DNA of 64,000 nt from contig JAGHZR010000008.1 of assembly GCA_017745295.1 (NCBI GenBank), forward strand, positions 62,001 to 126,000, written 5' to 3'. Within the stretch, counting starts at the first letter, position 1. Every line of letters begins with the position of its first letter. Under the pieces are notes generated by a model. That model saw only the letters and a program-made list of their open reading frames with translations. It was not told the DNA's origin and did not search any database. Below, piece after piece: positions 5,708 through 30,382 of the stretch. The position numbers and the translations under genes were made by a program. The DNA is from Novosphingobium sp. (lineage in GTDB: Bacteria > Pseudomonadota > Alphaproteobacteria > Sphingomonadales > Sphingomonadaceae).

Positions 5708-6987
5708 TGGCGCCCCCTCGCATCACCCGCGTGTTCGGCGCGGTCAATATCGGCTCCTTCCGCATTTCCGCGATCGTCGCGGGCATGTCGGAAATGGGCG
5801 ACATGATCGTGCTCGGCTCCGGCCACCGCGCCAGCCAGGGCATCAAGCGCGGCTATGTCACCGACATGGCCGCGGCGACCTATGCGGTGCGCGACGCCAT
5901 CGACCGCGCCGAGAAGATGGCCGACACCAGTGTGTCGAAAGTCTGGATCGGCTGCTCGGGAGCGGGCCTTGCCAGCCGCATCGACCAGTTCGATGCCGAG
6001 ATCGGCGGTCGCCGCATCGAGCAGGAGGATATCGACCAGCTGCTGATCTCGGCGCGCGAGGTGATCCAGCCGGACGGGCGCATGGTGCTCCATGCCCAGC
6101 CCGCGCAATATCGCCTCGATGGCGCCCACGGTGTCGGTAATCCCACCGGGCTTCATGCCGAGCGGCTCGGCGTCGATATCCATATCGTGCTGGCGGACGG
6201 CGCCCCGATCCGCAACCTGACCGAGGCGGTGCAGTGCGCGCATCTGGAGGTCGAGGCGGTGGTCGGCTCCCCGATTGCGGCGGGGCAGGCCTGCCTCTCG
6301 CCCGAGGAGCGCGATCTCGGCGTGGCGCTCGTCGAATTCGGAGCGGAAGTCACCAATGTCGCGGTCTATTCGCATGGGCTGCTGATCGACATGATCTCGA
6401 TCCCGATGGGCTCGGCGGATATCACCGATGCCGTCGCCTCGGCCTTCGGCATCCGCCGCTTCCAGGCCGAGCGTCTGAAGTGCGTGAACGGCTCGGCCAT
6501 CGCCAGCCCGCACGACCACCGCGAGATGATTCCCGTCAATGCCCCCGGCGAGGAGGGCACCGGCCCGATCGCCCGTCATGCCGACGACAAGAACCGCATT
6601 CCCCGCGCCGAACTGATCGGTGTCATCACCGGCCAGCTCGGCATCCTGATGGAAGAGATCAACAAGGCGCTCAAGCTGATGCGCTTCAACGCCCAGCGCG
6701 GCAAGCAGGTGGTCTTCACCGGCGGCGGCGCGGAACTGGTGGGACTGGCCGACTATGCGCAGGCCGCGCTCGGCAAGCCGGTGCGGATCGGCCGGGTGCC
6801 GCATCTCTCCGGTCTGGCCGAAGCCCACGTAAAACCGGGCTTCTCGACGCTGGCGGGCCTCGTGCTCTATGCCGCCGCCGACCCCATCGATATCCGCACG
6901 TTCGGCAAGAACCGTCAGGGTACAGTACGTTACAGCGGGCTGGGCGTAGTCAATCGCGTCTATAGAGCCTTGAGGGAATACTTTTGA
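5707..6987 (+). CDS. ftsA: Cell division protein FtsA
   Basis: VFGAVNIGSFRISAIVAG; QVVFTGGGAELVGL; start overlaps ftsQ stop by 1 nt. Confidence 0.95.
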   Translation: MAPPRITRVFGAVNIGSFRISAIVAGMSEMGDMIVLGSGHRASQGIKRGYVTDMAAATYAVRDAIDRAEKMADTSVSKVWIGCSGAGLASRIDQFDAEIGGRRIEQEDIDQLLISAREVIQPDGRMVLHAQPAQYRLDGAHGVGNPTGLHAERLGVDIHIVLADGAPIRNLTEAVQCAHLEVEAVVGSPIAAGQACLSPEERDLGVALVEFGAEVTNVAVYSHGLLIDMISIPMGSADITDAVASAFGIRRFQAERLKCVNGSAIASPHDHREMIPVNAPGEEGTGPIARHADDKNRIPRAELIGVITGQLGILMEEINKALKLMRFNAQRGKQVVFTGGGAELVGLADYAQAALGKPVRIGRVPHLSGLAEAHVKPGFSTLAGLVLYAAADPIDIRTFGKNRQGTVRYSGLGVVNRVYRALREYF

Positions 6988-7083
6988 GCACTTTGGCAAG
7001 TCGTGCAATTCCTGCGACGCGAACGCCGCGATTGGCGGGAATTGGCGGTTTCGCCTGTGGACAACAGTACCGCGCGCTTTGCC

Positions 7084-7112
7084 TTGACAGAGGCAGCCGT
7101 GCAATCAGGCTA
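7084..7112 (+). promoter_or_regulatory. Possible ftsZ-proximal housekeeping promoter (TTGACA-N17-AGGCTA)
   Basis: TTGACA at 7084-7089 with 17-nt spacing in the ftsA-ftsZ intergenic gap; the -10 match is weak. Confidence 0.3.
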
Positions 7113-7156
7113 GTCAAGATAATTTTCTTCGCGCACGTGCCTGCCAGGAGAACGAA

Positions 7157-8704
7157 ATGAGCATCAACATCGGACCGCCGGCGATCGAAGAGCTTCGTCC
7201 GCGGATTGTCGTCATCGGCGTAGGCGGTGCGGGCGGCAACGCCATCGCCAACATGATCCAGGCCCAGATAGAGGGCGTGGACTTCGTCGTCGCCAATACC
7301 GACGCCCAGGCGCTCAACAACTCGATCGCGGAAACGCGCATCCAACTCGGTCCGGAAATCACCCAGGGTCTCGGCGCCGGTGCGCGTCCGGAAGTGGGCC
7401 GTGCCGCTGCAGAGGAAACCATCGAGGACATCGAGCGCCTGCTCGAAGGCGTCCACATGGTCTTCATCGCCGCCGGCATGGGCGGCGGCACCGGCACCGG
7501 CGCCGCACCGATCATCGCCCAGGCCGCGCGCGCCAAGGGCGTGCTGACGGTCGGCGTGGTTTCCAAGCCGTTCATGTTCGAAGGCACGCGCCGCATGCGC
7601 TCGGCCGACGCCGGTATCGAGGAGCTGCAGAAGCACGTCGATACGCTGATCGTCATCCCGAACCAGAACCTGTTCCTGGTCGCCAAGGCGGACACCACCT
7701 TCAAGGAAGCCTTCTCGCTTGCCGACGAAGTGCTCCAGCAAGGCGTGCGCTCGATCACCGACCTGATGATCATGCCGGGCCTCATCAACCTCGACTTCGC
7801 CGACGTCCGCTCGGTCATGGGCGAGATGGGCAAGGCGATGATGGGCACGGGCGAGGGCGAAGGCCCGAACCGCGCGCTCGAAGCCGCCGAACGCGCCATA
7901 GCCAACCCGCTGCTCGACGGCGTTTCGATGCAGGGCGCCAAGGGCGTCATCATCTCGATCATCGGCGGCGACGACATGAAGCTGCTCGAAGTCGACGAAG
8001 CCGCGAACCATATCCGCGAACTGGTCGATCCCGATGCGAACATCATCTGGGGCTCGGCGTTCAACCCGGACCTCCAGGGCAAGATCCGCGTCTCGGTGGT
8101 TGCCACCGGCATCGAACAGACCACCGAAATGGCCGAGATCGCGGCGCGTCCGCTGAACCTCAGCGCCTCGCGCGGCCCGGTCCGCCCGATGGTATCGCGT
8201 CCGGTGCCCAGCGCGCCCGCGCCGCTCGTCACCCCGGCTCCGGCCGTGGCGATCCCGCAGGCGCCTGCTGCTTCGGTCTCCGAGCCGTTCGAACTCTCGA
8301 CCCCCGCTTCCGAGGCGGCCGAGCAGCCGTTCGAACTCGAACTCGGCGCCAGCGAGGAAGTCGAGCCGGAAGCGCCGGTCGCCTACGCCGGTCTGCGCAG
8401 CAGCCAGCCGCTCGATCTCGGTGCGCCCCAGCAACCGGCTGCACGCCCGCAGGACGAACTGCTGCTGAACGGCAACCAGCACGCCGAGCCGGAAGCGCCG
8501 ATGCGCGCGCCTGCGCCCAGCCAGCCTGCAATCAGCCAGCCTGCCCCCGCTCCGGCCCGCCCGGTCGGCGGCGGCTCCACGCTGTTCGAGCGCATGACCA
8601 GCCTCTCGCGCCCCAAGCCCGCTCCGGCGGAGCCTGCCGGTGACGAGGACGACAGCGCGTCGATCAGCATCCCGCGCTTCCTCGGGCGGCAGAACAATCA
8701 GTAA
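7157..8704 (+). CDS. ftsZ: Cell division protein FtsZ
   Basis: [29 protein letters not shown]-terminal conserved peptide SIPRFLGRQ. Confidence 0.98.
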
Positions 8705-24993: not shown

Positions 24994-25596
24994 TCAGCCC
25001 GGACGGTGTTCGCTCACTTCCAGCAATTCCGCCTCGCCGTTGAGCATCCGTGCCAGGTCGGCGCGGGCGCGGGCGACCCTGCTTTTCATCGTCCCGATCG
25101 GACAACCGGCGATATCCGCCGCTTCCTCGTAGCTGAAGCCCGAGGCGCCCACGAGCAGAACGGCCTCGCGCCGCTCGGGCGCCAGCTTCTGCAGGGCCGT
25201 TTCCATGTCGCCGAGGTGCAGGGGGCCTTCCTGGTCCGCCTCCATCACCAGCATCCGTTCCACCGCGCCTTCGTCGAGGTCGGTCTGGCGCCTGCTCTTG
25301 CGCAGTTCGGACAAGTAATGATTGCGCAGAATCGCGAAAGTCCAGGCGCGCATGTTGGTGCCCGCCGTGTAGCGGTCCCGCGCGGTCCAGGCCTTGATCG
25401 CGGCTTCCTGCACGAGATCGTCGGCGAAATCCGGTCGGCCCGAAAGCCCGCGGGCGAAAGCGCGCAAATGGGGAAGCACCGTCAGCAATTCGCGGCGGAA
25501 CGATTCGTCCTCGGGGCGCGGGATTCTGGGGTCGGGGCGCCGGTCGGCTGCGGATGGCCGGTCCGTGCCGGGGGCGGAAGCCTTGGCGTCAGGCAT
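24994..25596 (-). CDS. ecfG: RNA polymerase ECF sigma factor, EcfG (general stress response) type
   Basis: PHLRAFARGLSGRPDFADDLVQEAAIKAWTARDRYTAGTNMRAWTFAILRNHYLSELRKSRR; sigma4 GFSYEEAADIAGCPIGTMKSRVARAR; overlaps nepR. Confidence 0.92.
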   Translation of the reverse strand: MPDAKASAPGTDRPSAADRRPDPRIPRPEDESFRRELLTVLPHLRAFARGLSGRPDFADDLVQEAAIKAWTARDRYTAGTNMRAWTFAILRNHYLSELRKSRRQTDLDEGAVERMLVMEADQEGPLHLGDMETALQKLAPERREAVLLVGASGFSYEEAADIAGCPIGTMKSRVARARADLARMLNGEAELLEVSEHRPG

Positions 25597-25813
25597 CGTC
25601 CGCCCCGTCCAGCTTCTTGAGAAGATCCCTGAAGCTGTCCGGAAGCGGTTCGTCCACCACGGAGTTGTAGAGCTTCCTCAATCCCCCGGCCCAACCCGGT
25701 TCGCCGTCCCTGCGCACTTCGGGCGGCAGGCCTGGATTCGCCGAATCGCCCCCTCCCTGGGCGCTCAGGCGTTCCCCGCCATGTCCTTTGGATTGATTCA
25801 ACTTAGACTCCAT
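25589..25813 (-). CDS. nepR: NepR-type anti-sigma factor
   Basis: Conserved core GGLRKLYNSVVDEPLPDSFRDLLKKLD; translationally coupled to ecfG. Confidence 0.9.
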   Translation of the reverse strand: MESKLNQSKGHGGERLSAQGGGDSANPGLPPEVRRDGEPGWAGGLRKLYNSVVDEPLPDSFRDLLKKLDGADDA

Positions 25814-25943: not shown

Positions 25944-25970
25944 GGAACAATTGAGGTCGGTCTTGGTTCC
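25944..25970. promoter_or_regulatory. Divergent EcfG-type promoter, GGAAC-N17-GTT on both strands (GGAACaattgaggtcggtcttgGTTCC)
   Basis: Read directly; lies between nepR (minus) and the kinase gene (plus). Confidence 0.75.
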
Positions 25971-26030
25971 CTCAGCTACAAAGTCTTGTCCCGGCCTGCC
26001 TCGCAATCTGCCTCGCGAAGGGTTCGGAGC

Positions 26031-27746
26031 ATGGCGATGCTCCTGAGAAAAGATGCGGTTCGGCTGAAATGGCGTGGATTTCCGGTGATTGACCAGGCTC
26101 TGCTCGACAGGGTGCAGAAGCAGGCGTGGTTCCACAAGTATCCGCGCGGCTGGCCATTCCTGCTGTTCATCATCGCGTCCATCACCACGGCCGTCTCGGT
26201 CATGGCGATCGAGCGGGCGGACCGGCAGACCCGTCAGGTCGAACTGGACCGCAACCTCACGGAAATCTCTTCGGCATTGCAGCGCCGCGCAACCGAGAAC
26301 ATCGCGTTGCTGCGCGCCGGCGCCGCGCTCTTCGCCACGCAGGAGCAGGTGAGCGCCGCACAGTTCCGCTCCTTTGCCGAGGATCTTCAGGGCAAGGGTG
26401 ATCTCTACGGCTCGCTCGGCATGGGCTGGGCGCCACTGGTACAGGTCGACCGTGTGACCAGTCTGGAACTGTCGATCCAGGGCACAGAGCGCCCCGATTT
26501 CCTGATCTATCCGCGCCCCGACTATTCCCGGCGCTATCTGGCGCCGATCGTCTACCTCGAACCCGACGACGGCACCAACCGGGCGGCGATCGGCTACGAC
26601 ATGCTGTCGGAAGATGTCCGCCGTGCCGCGATGGAGCGGGCGATGAAGGTCGGCAAGCCGGTCGCCTCGGGCAAGGTCCATCTCGTGCAGGACGTGGGCA
26701 ACAAGCAGCAGACGCCGGGCTTCCTGATCTACATGCCGGTGATCGCGCCGCGTTCGGGCGGGCAGGTGAAGGGCTTCGTGTTCAGCCCGTTCCGCGCCGA
26801 GACCTTCCTGGAATCGGCCAGCGAACTCTATCGCAACAACAATATCGACGTCGCGGTCTACGACGGTTCGGTGGAGCCGGACCGGCTTCTGGCCGAGCGC
26901 CGCGCCGAAGGCTCCGCCGGGCCGCAGATGGAGCGGCGAATCGACCTCGGCAGCCATACCTGGGTCGTCGTCATCAGCGACCGCAAGAGCGGGGTGCTCT
27001 CTACCGCCTCGCGAATCACCCTGTTCTTCGGCGCGCTCGCCTCGCTGATGGTCATGGCGATCGGACGGCTCATCACCCGCCGCGCCGCCGAGGACCGCAT
27101 GGTGCTGGAATGGCTCCAGAGCCAGTCGGCGATCCGCAACTCGCTCACTCGCGAGCTGAACCACCGCGTCAAGAACACCCTGGCCAACGTGCTGTCGATC
27201 GCCGCGCTCACCCGCCGCCGCGCCACCGATATCGACGATTTCACCGAGAGCCTCACCGCCCGCATCCGCGCGCTTTCCGCCACCCACGACCTGTTGTCCC
27301 AGTCGGACTGGACCCACGCGATTCTCGGCGATGTCGTGCGCTCGGAACTGGCGCCCTACATGGAGGGCAACGAGAGCCACGTGGAACTCTCCGGTCCGGA
27401 GATCCGGCTGGCGCCCAACGATGCCATGTCACTGGGCCTCGCGATCCACGAACTGGCCACCAATGCCGCGAAATACGGCGCGCTGAGCGCCAGCGGCGGA
27501 TGCATCCACGTCAACTGGACGCTGGTCCGCCCCGACCTTGCCGAGCTCGACTGGCGCGAGGAAGGCGGCCCGCCGGTGCGCGAACCCACCAAGCGAGGCT
27601 TCGGCCGCGACCTGATCGAGAAGATTGTGGCGCACGAGCTGAAGTCCGAAGTCGATCTCCGGTTCAAGCCGGAAGGCGTCGAATGCCGCCTCAAGGTTCC
27701 GGTACGCGCCAGCCGCGAATTTGCGCTGCGCACGGAGCGCCGATAA
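26031..27746 (+). CDS. CHASE-domain HWE/HisKA_2 sensor histidine kinase, putative PhyR kinase
   Basis: Two TM segments flanking a CHASE-like region (YGSLGMGWAPLVQVDRV...FLIYPRPDYSRRYLAPIVYLEP); LTRELNHRVKNTLANVLSIAALTRRR; IHELATNAAKYGALS. Confidence 0.88.
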   Translation: MAMLLRKDAVRLKWRGFPVIDQALLDRVQKQAWFHKYPRGWPFLLFIIASITTAVSVMAIERADRQTRQVELDRNLTEISSALQRRATENIALLRAGAALFATQEQVSAAQFRSFAEDLQGKGDLYGSLGMGWAPLVQVDRVTSLELSIQGTERPDFLIYPRPDYSRRYLAPIVYLEPDDGTNRAAIGYDMLSEDVRRAAMERAMKVGKPVASGKVHLVQDVGNKQQTPGFLIYMPVIAPRSGGQVKGFVFSPFRAETFLESASELYRNNNIDVAVYDGSVEPDRLLAERRAEGSAGPQMERRIDLGSHTWVVVISDRKSGVLSTASRITLFFGALASLMVMAIGRLITRRAAEDRMVLEWLQSQSAIRNSLTRELNHRVKNTLANVLSIAALTRRRATDIDDFTESLTARIRALSATHDLLSQSDWTHAILGDVVRSELAPYMEGNESHVELSGPEIRLAPNDAMSLGLAIHELATNAAKYGALSASGGCIHVNWTLVRPDLAELDWREEGGPPVREPTKRGFGRDLIEKIVAHELKSEVDLRFKPEGVECRLKVPVRASREFALRTERR

Positions 27747-28361: not shown

Positions 28362-29156
28362 TTACCCGAGCGGCTTGCTCGACCCAAAGAACAACGCCTG
28401 ACTGATCGCCGCCCGCACGGTGGCTTCCTGGAACGGCTTGGTGACGAGGTAGGTCGGTTCGGGCCGTTCGCCGGTGAGCAGGCGTTCGGGGTAGGCGGTG
28501 ATGAAGATCACCGGCACGTCGCCGAACTTCAGCAGGTCTTCCACCGCTTCGATGCCCGAGCTGCCGTCGGCCAGCTGGATGTCGGCGAGGACGAGTCCGG
28601 CGGGGGAGCGTTCGAAGATGTCGAGCGCCTGGGCGTGGGTGGCGGCGGTGCCGACGACGCGGTGGCCGAGGTCGCTGACGAGGCCTTCGAGCTGCATCGA
28701 GATCAGCGGTTCGTCCTCGATGATAAGCACGTCGGTCGTGCTCTCGCCTTCGATTTCGAGCACGGCCTGGGTCACCAGCGCATCGACGTCCTCGGGCGAG
28801 ACGGCGAGGATCTGGGCGGTATCCTCGCGCGAGAATTCCTCCACGGTGGTCAGCAGCAGGGCCTGGCGGTGCGTGGGGGCGATCGTGGCGAGGCGCGTCT
28901 GCGCCGCCTGTTCGTGGCGGCCGCCTTCGCTGTTCAGGCCCGGTTCCTCGATATGGCCGGTCGCCCAGATGCGGGTGAAGGCGGCATAGAGGGCGGCGCG
29001 GCTGCGAGCGATATCGTCGCGCAGCACCTTGTCGGCCAGGGCGGCTTCCAGCGTGGCGCGCACATACGTGTCGCCGGACTGCTGGGAGCCGGTGAGCGCG
29101 CGCGCGTAGCGGCGAAGGTAGGGCAGTTGGATGGCGATCTGGTCGGAGACGGACAT
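28362..29156 (-). CDS. phyR: PhyR: sigma-like domain plus receiver domain, general stress response regulator
   Basis: N-terminal sigma-like MSVSDQIAIQLPYLRRYARALTGSQQSGD...; C-terminal receiver VLIIEDEPLISMQLEGLVSDLGHRVVGTA...VLADIQLADGSSG...VTKPFQEATVRAAI. Confidence 0.95.
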   Translation of the reverse strand: MSVSDQIAIQLPYLRRYARALTGSQQSGDTYVRATLEAALADKVLRDDIARSRAALYAAFTRIWATGHIEEPGLNSEGGRHEQAAQTRLATIAPTHRQALLLTTVEEFSREDTAQILAVSPEDVDALVTQAVLEIEGESTTDVLIIEDEPLISMQLEGLVSDLGHRVVGTAATHAQALDIFERSPAGLVLADIQLADGSSGIEAVEDLLKFGDVPVIFITAYPERLLTGERPEPTYLVTKPFQEATVRAAISQALFFGSSKPLG

Positions 29157-29303: not shown

Positions 29304-29328
29304 GGAACCAACGCGGGAGGCCCACGTT
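29304..29328 (+). promoter_or_regulatory. EcfG-type promoter candidate GGAAC-N16-CGTT (distal, phyR/second sigma intergenic region)
   Basis: GGAAC 29304-29308, CGTT 29325-29328. Confidence 0.5.
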
Positions 29329-29618
29329 TGCTCCATGTCACCACTGGCTCCCCCACCCCCCGCAAACCGGTGGTGACCCGATCCCGGAGGCCTCCGTTCA
29401 CCGCAGAGTGGACGGAGGCCTCAAAGTTTACGGACGGGGGTTGTTCCCACGATGAACGGAAAAAAGTTTCTCCGCATTTTTGACCCGCACCTTGGTCATG
29501 ACGCCGGATGATCGCGCGCAGGCCTCGTTCTGTCTTGTATTGAACGCACGGAATCGCTGAAAACTGCGGCAAACCGTTGGAACATTTTCAGGTAAGGCAC
29601 TGCGCCGGAGCGGTTTGG

Positions 29619-29692: not shown

Positions 29693-30382
29693 ATGACCGC
29701 AGCAACCGAAACCAGCGCCGGTGCCATCGCAGCAACCGGAATGCAGCAGGGTGCGGCACAGGCCGGGGAAGTGGCAACTCTCAGCGACCGGGATTTCAAG
29801 CGCGCACTCGCCGATGTGGCGCCGCACCTTCGCGCTTTCGCGCGCGGCCTGTGCGGCTGCCGCGATCGTGCCGACGATCTTGCGCAGGAAGCGATGCTCC
29901 GCGCCTGGGCCGCGCGCGGCCGTTATGCCGCCGGGACCAACTTCAAGGCCTGGACTTTCACGATCCTGCGCAACCACTTCTACAGCGAGGCCCGCCGCGC
30001 CCGCTTCCACGGCGAGTACGACGAACTGGCCGCCGAACGCATTTTGCGCGCGGAAGCGAGCCAGGAGAGCGCCATCGAGCTGGCCGACGTGCTCCGCGCG
30101 CTAACGGCCATTCCCGAAACCTACCGCGAGGCTCTGATTCTTGTGGCGGCGGGGAACCTGTCCTACGAGGAAATCGCCCGGATCTGCGGCATCGCCCTCG
30201 GCACGGTGAAGAGCCGCATCTGCCGCGCTCGCGCGATGCTGTCCAAGGTCATCGAATCCGGCCAGCTTCCGGATTTCCGTCACAACTTCGTGCTGTCCGG
30301 AGACGCCATCGACGCGTTCTTCGCGGAACTGGTCAAGATCGCCAATGTTACCGACGAGCAGGACGATGCCGTCGCGGCGTGA
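29693..30382 (+). CDS. Second ECF sigma factor, EcfG-like, with a C-terminal extension
   Basis: APHLRAFARGLCGCRDRADDLAQEAMLRAWAARGRYAAGTNFKAWTFTILRNHFYSEARRARF; NLSYEEIARICGIALGTVKSRICRAR. Confidence 0.9.
   Translation: MTAATETSAGAIAATGMQQGAAQAGEVATLSDRDFKRALADVAPHLRAFARGLCGCRDRADDLAQEAMLRAWAARGRYAAGTNFKAWTFTILRNHFYSEARRARFHGEYDELAAERILRAEASQESAIELADVLRALTAIPETYREALILVAAGNLSYEEIARICGIALGTVKSRICRARAMLSKVIESGQLPDFRHNFVLSGDAIDAFFAELVKIANVTDEQDDAVAA

Follow-up and report, generated by a model that had tools for sequence, protein, structure and literature searches.

The window analysed here, a stretch of 64,000 nucleotides from a Novosphingobium sp. contig, contains a GSR locus whose nearest named relatives are those of Novosphingobium panipatense and N. 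lindaniclasticum. The following genes were recognized in it:

24994..25596, minus strand: ecfG, ECF sigma factor, overlapping the end of nepR (Pfam Sigma70_r2/r4_2)
25589..25813, minus strand: nepR, anti-sigma factor, 74 aa (Pfam PF18557, E 3e-13)
26031..27746, plus strand: CHASE-HWE histidine kinase in the PhyP/PhyT position (Pfam CHASE 6.5e-45, HWE_HK 1.3e-26; HRVKN motif, alignment A1)
28362..29156, minus strand: phyR, sigma-like plus receiver anti-anti-sigma factor of the same locus (Pfam PhyR_sigma2, PhyR_sigma-like, Response_reg)
29693..30382, plus strand: second EcfG-like ECF sigma factor, a paralogue (Pfam)

The Pfam assignments bear out the original prediction with respect to the divergent gene pair of interest, namely nepR-ecfG on the minus strand and a CHASE/HWE kinase on the plus strand. 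The likely start of the kinase is the ATG at 26031, which is preceded by GGAG. With PhyP and PhyT this protein shares its place at the phyR/nepR/ecfG locus and the HRxxN motif in the DHp region, which takes the form HRVKN and is invariant in alignment A1; furthermore, a CHASE sensor was found by Pfam. The HATPase domain gave no Pfam match even at E 10, and an N-box-like HELATNAAKYGAL and a GFG motif were seen by reading the sequence. In S. melonis Fr1, PhyT is essential and functions both as a negative regulator and as a phosphotransferase (PMC5898713). The window kinase may be an activator, a phosphotransferase or a repressor, and the feedback could accordingly have either sign.

Between nepR-ecfG on the left and the kinase on the right, positions 25944-25970 read GGAACAATTGAGGTCGGTCTTGGTTCC, that is, GGAAC-N17-GTTCC, a 27-bp element. 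A pattern search of the window recovers GGAAC-N17-GTT on both strands, at 25944-25968 on the plus strand and at 25946-25970 on the minus strand, exactly as originally described. The parts of the element are:

25944..25970, both strands: symmetric EcfG promoter element GGAAC-N17-GTTCC, predicted for both directions (sequence and conservation in 129/141 and 64/80 loci)
25944..25948, plus strand: kinase-facing -35, GGAAC (sequence; tree counts)
25966..25968, plus strand: kinase-facing -10, GTT with a preceding G (sequence)
25966..25970, minus strand: nepR-ecfG-facing -35, GGAAC (sequence; kept in 80/80 named loci)
25946..25948, minus strand: nepR-ecfG-facing -10, GTT with a preceding T (sequence)
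25973..25978, plus strand: zone predicted for the start of the kinase transcript, ~5-10 nt past GTT (scaled from the sigma-H open complex, PMC6411747)
25936..25941, minus strand: predicted start zone of nepR-ecfG (from PMC6411747)

The two directions share most of their determinants: the AAC of the kinase-facing -35 is the complement of the nepR -10 GTT, such that only its first two bases (GG, 25944-25945) are used by the kinase direction alone. Each strand combines the GGAAC -35 of EcfG-type promoters, an allowed spacing (17 of 16-17 nt) and the GTT of the (C/G)GTT -10, with the qualification that the canonical CGTT is absent from both -10 elements in the window. The kinase-side GGTT fits the published consensus C/G-GTT (PMC4814048), the nepR-side TGTT lacks the C/G, and in most Erythrobacteraceae relatives the nepR-side -10 is CGTT. 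The element also lies where an EcfG promoter is expected, upstream of nepR-ecfG and of a GSR-locus kinase, orthologues or analogues of which are EcfG-dependent in Fr1 (PMC6599016). A search against Rfam yielded no match near the element.

As a bare pattern, the symmetric element is not unusual. The window holds seven instances of GGAAC-N16/17-GTT compared to 1.9 expected, and genome-wide pattern searches place the symmetric GGAAC-N17-GTTCC at 11 sites, compared to 13 for the reversed pattern used as control. An ordinary EcfG promoter is just two bases short of this symmetry, GTT being already part of GGAAC as read on the opposite strand. Several of the other 10 symmetric sites lie inside genes, and a genome-wide use of symmetric EcfG promoters is accordingly unsupported. 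One site with CGTT on both strands (G000:C10:26825-26851), lying between genes that encode a PAP2 phosphatase and a DNA photolyase, was set aside as a supporting case given that it overlaps the likely photolyase start codon. Since the bare pattern is no more frequent than its control, conservation becomes the test, and it is position and conservation that set the element apart from chance.

NepR was searched in 150 family and 150 genus genomes, a few of which were taken twice, and the respective loci were retrieved. Among the 141 sampled Novosphingobium/Erythrobacteraceae loci in which nepR and a relative of this kinase are transcribed divergently, 129 carry the exact element with a spacing of 17. 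Over the 127 distinct copies, flanking and mid-spacer positions are near-random (~0-0.2 bits per position), and the positions adjoining the fixed boxes moderately favor WTCGTT towards nepR and WTGGTT towards the kinase. A set of 80 named loci drawn from GTDB, which partially overlaps the first sample and spans Novosphingobium, Croceicoccus, Croceibacterium, Altererythrobacter, Aurantiacibacter and Qipengyuania, has nepR divergent in all 80 cases and the exact element in 64. When changes were counted on the kinase tree, with the loci anchored on the nepR-facing boxes (which therefore show no change by construction) and the two kinase-only positions left free, these two positions underwent 2 and 2 changes outside one exceptional clade, compared to a mean of 27.8 and a minimum of 22 for the flanking columns. 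Thus, the dual use of one site, which the original prediction had only surmised, gains support from the conservation of precisely those bases that the kinase direction alone requires.

The exceptions are no less informative. In all 16 named exceptions the nepR-facing promoter is kept and only the kinase-facing GG is lost. Twelve of these form a single clade (SH-aLRT 99) of Qipengyuania and Erythrobacter, mostly the former; the other four are isolated Novosphingobium-like loci, all from metagenome assemblies. Within the clade the two kinase-only bases read GT, AA, TG, AC, CC, AT or GC, and the corresponding positions change 5 and 4 times compared to 4.5 for the flanks, i.e., neutrally, with the nepR half fixed. 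Moreover, the members of this clade possess a separate kinase GGAAC 12-41 bp further downstream, mostly as GGAAC-N17-ATAGTA. Across all distinct loci, a second kinase GGAAC is present in 17 of 20 broken versus 16 of 156 symmetric loci, where the broken loci are related and hence not independent draws; the exceptional clade probably reflects a single evolutionary event, so that the pattern of compensation does not amount to many independent replicates. Nevertheless, the kinase-only GG is constrained where no other EcfG box is available to the kinase, and unconstrained where one is, so the kinase-facing half appears to be a used promoter, which is the simplest reading of this natural experiment. 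The free drift of these bases just where the kinase gained its own GGAAC further favors the dual use that was originally proposed. As a separate observation, the kinase promoter of the Qipengyuania-type clade has an unusual -10, ATAGTA-like at a spacing of N17 from GGAAC instead of (C/G)GTT, which is conserved across species (L257, L262-L264, L268, L286, L288, L291, L295, L299, L019, L069 and L073).

A related arrangement is found in Sphingomonas-type loci (among them L309-L337 and L303-L308), in which nepR is divergent from phyR and the two share the element GGAAC-N17-GTTTC in 46/46 cases; given this ending, the phyR -35 would be GAAAC. The set includes six close relatives with the nepR promoter published for S. 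melonis Fr1 (GGAACCAACGAACGCGACTTTGGTT, gene #1444). RNA-seq of S. melonis Fr1 shows that NepR, PhyR and PhyT are EcfG-dependent (PMC6599016) and, by analogy, lends experimental support from a relative, based on expression as opposed to start mapping, to a pseudo-symmetric EcfG promoter whose flanking genes both depend on EcfG. This counterpart, in which both divergent genes depend on EcfG in Fr1, is a third line of evidence consistent with the originally suggested dual use.

Could the element serve nepR-ecfG only, with the CC that follows its -10 (the kinase-facing GG on the other strand) kept for the sake of nepR, for example as a discriminator or start-region preference? Such an account fits the stricter maintenance of the nepR-direction boxes relative to the kinase-facing GG and the canonical nepR promoter of most relatives, but we regard it as improbable: CC is free to vary in the Qipengyuania-type clade although the nepR promoter is intact, all 46 Sphingomonas nepR promoters have TC in this place rather than CC, CC follows only 22 of the 151 GGAAC-N17-GTT sites in the genome, and a role confined to nepR does not predict the linkage to a separate kinase GGAAC. 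Slightly less probable still is the notion that the dyad, rather than comprising two promoters, is the binding site of a dimeric regulator, with half-sites 22 bp apart, or two helical turns. A perfect inverted repeat with 5 bp arms at a fixed spacing is what such a regulator would call for; however, the arms coincide with the EcfG -35 already known and contain the -10 at EcfG spacing, the C/G before GTT is not predicted, the loss is one-sided and matched by a new kinase-facing GGAAC-N17 unit, and in loci from other families of the class the same genes have EcfG promoters that are separate and back to back.

Finally, the symmetry might be fortuitous, with CC standing by accident at the end of an ordinary nepR promoter, as the equivalence of the genome frequency with that of the reversed control (11 versus 13) would allow. 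Its conservation over ~150 loci with saturated flanks leaves this explanation a negligible probability; chance symmetry as a general explanation is thus ruled out by conservation, the lack of genome-wide enrichment notwithstanding.

With its sequence, gene setting and deep conservation directly established, together with a constraint on the kinase-only bases that vanishes in the presence of another kinase GGAAC, we consider it very likely that the element is a genuine, fully overlapping bidirectional EcfG promoter whose two orientations would be mutually exclusive. At exactly 17 bp of spacing one 27-bp site comprises two head-to-head promoters, because GGAAC reversed is GTTCC, which contains the -10 core GTT. 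EcfG-RNA polymerase would bind this site in either orientation, one leading to nepR-ecfG, and hence to autoregulation along with production of EcfG's own inhibitor, and the other to the sensor kinase. The structure of sigma-H indicates that a 17-bp spacer is optimal for ECF promoters with GGAAC and GTT and that, in the open complex, the -35 is held as duplex and the bubble extends from ~-9 to +2 (PMC6411747). On this model, a polymerase that opens the DNA in the kinase direction would do so at or beside the nepR -35, and one facing nepR would do likewise at the kinase -35. The two orientations are therefore expected to exclude each other, each open complex melting the -35 duplex of the other. 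Under stress, EcfG freed from NepR would use the site either way, raising nepR-ecfG and the kinase together, with both outputs drawn from one pool of binding events.

Competition between polymerases would follow from this geometry. In the case of bidirectional sigma-70 promoters of E. coli, interference occurs only when one direction is strongly active, and basal promoters often fire without competition (PMC12825309). Given that interference in E. coli requires strong transcription, the coupling of sigma/anti-sigma output to sensor level has the status of a prediction, and real competition at the element would depend on occupancy. Conceivably, although we put this forward only tentatively and lean against it, the overlap is kept as a device rather than for compactness: a single site used in one orientation at a time might fix the ratio, and cut the noise, between new sigma/anti-sigma and new kinase under stress, and a change of two bases would suffice to set or abandon the coupling, as Qipengyuania would have done.

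The same locus offers another EcfG promoter of the canonical form, GGAAC-N16-CGTT at 29304-29328 on the plus strand, which faces the gap between phyR and the second sigma factor gene. The predicted RNA at ~29335-29450 (plus strand) folds far better than its shuffles (-58 kcal/mol, z -4.1), with a 5' stem bearing a C-rich loop and a 3' terminator-like hairpin. Together with such a promoter it is kept in ~30 named relatives (Novosphingobium and relatives); 11 of its 24 base pairs show changes on both sides, and it matches no Rfam family. GsrN, an EcfG-controlled small RNA of Caulobacter, likewise has a C-rich 5' loop, and was not found by its authors in the sphingomonad relative Erythrobacter litoralis (PMC5869019). 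The predicted RNA resembles GsrN and is thus a candidate GsrN-like, EcfG-driven small RNA. In nine relatives (L225, L226, L228, L232-L235, L237 and L238, near 6700-7740), as distinct from the window, the promoter of this RNA also has the symmetric form GGAAC-N17-GTTCC, and phyR lies opposite the RNA across it.

The symmetric EcfG promoter offers a conserved example, replicated in nature, of one piece of DNA acting as two promoters of the same alternative sigma factor, and this at the very locus encoding that factor together with its inhibitor and a sensor. The competition of polymerase orientations as a regulatory device thereby becomes a testable question, with a natural control at hand in the one clade that separated the two promoters. 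Furthermore, the logic of the ECF -35 and -10 (GGAAC/GTT) implies that just two bases separate any ordinary EcfG promoter from a two-way one. In the papers searched for divergent, overlapping, bidirectional or palindromic EcfG promoters, the 2011 PNAS paper on the Fr1 cascade not being among them, we found no description of a symmetric one.

Several known systems are nevertheless comparable in part. Divergent phyR and nepR-ecfG promoters of other Alphaproteobacteria (PMC8103513, PMC4814048) likewise drive the two divergent GSR units of the core locus from promoters of the EcfG type; in the loci sampled from other families, however, the GGAAC boxes are typically back to back, ~9 bp apart (L094, L097, L098, L100, L102 and L103), and therefore the promoters do not fully overlap. 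One of these loci, L094, has a symmetric copy besides its back-to-back boxes. The GSR locus of S. melonis Fr1 (PMC6599016, PMC5898713) is similar in the EcfG dependence of nepR, phyR and phyT, in a nepR promoter of the form GGAAC-N17-GTT, and in encoding a PhyP/PhyT kinase-like protein. It differs in that the nepR promoter of its close relatives is common to phyR, with GGAAC-N17-GTTTC and a second -35 of GAAAC, and in that its PhyT has a different sensor part from that of the window kinase; it is the only case with expression data, which pertain to the pseudo-symmetric phyR version and not to a nepR/kinase pair. At the hrpJ-hrpL divergent region of Pseudomonas syringae (PMC5263251), HrpL, an ECF sigma factor, acting at one divergent promoter affects the neighbor that controls its own level, but there two different promoters (ECF and sigma-54) lie side by side instead of forming one symmetric site.

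The closest conceptual precedent comes from the bidirectional sigma-70 promoters that Warman, Grainger and colleagues described in E. coli and other prokaryotes (PMC12825309), in which pseudo-symmetric DNA similarly accepts polymerase in either orientation and mRNA can be produced both ways. In that class the symmetry resides in a common -10, and the starts are usually separated by 18, 10 or 23 bp (PMC12825309). The present element departs from that arrangement (a common -10 and divergent starts 10-23 bp apart), its -10 elements having no overlap: here the whole ECF promoter is symmetric, with the -35 of one strand over the -10 of the other, and the predicted starts would lie ~32-42 bp apart. 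It differs also in employing an alternative sigma factor made from its own site and in its site-specific conservation across genera. Thus, the bidirectional promoter as a class is already known, whereas, as far as can be told, novelty lies in the geometry, in the sigma factor involved, in the autoregulatory setting and in the conservation.
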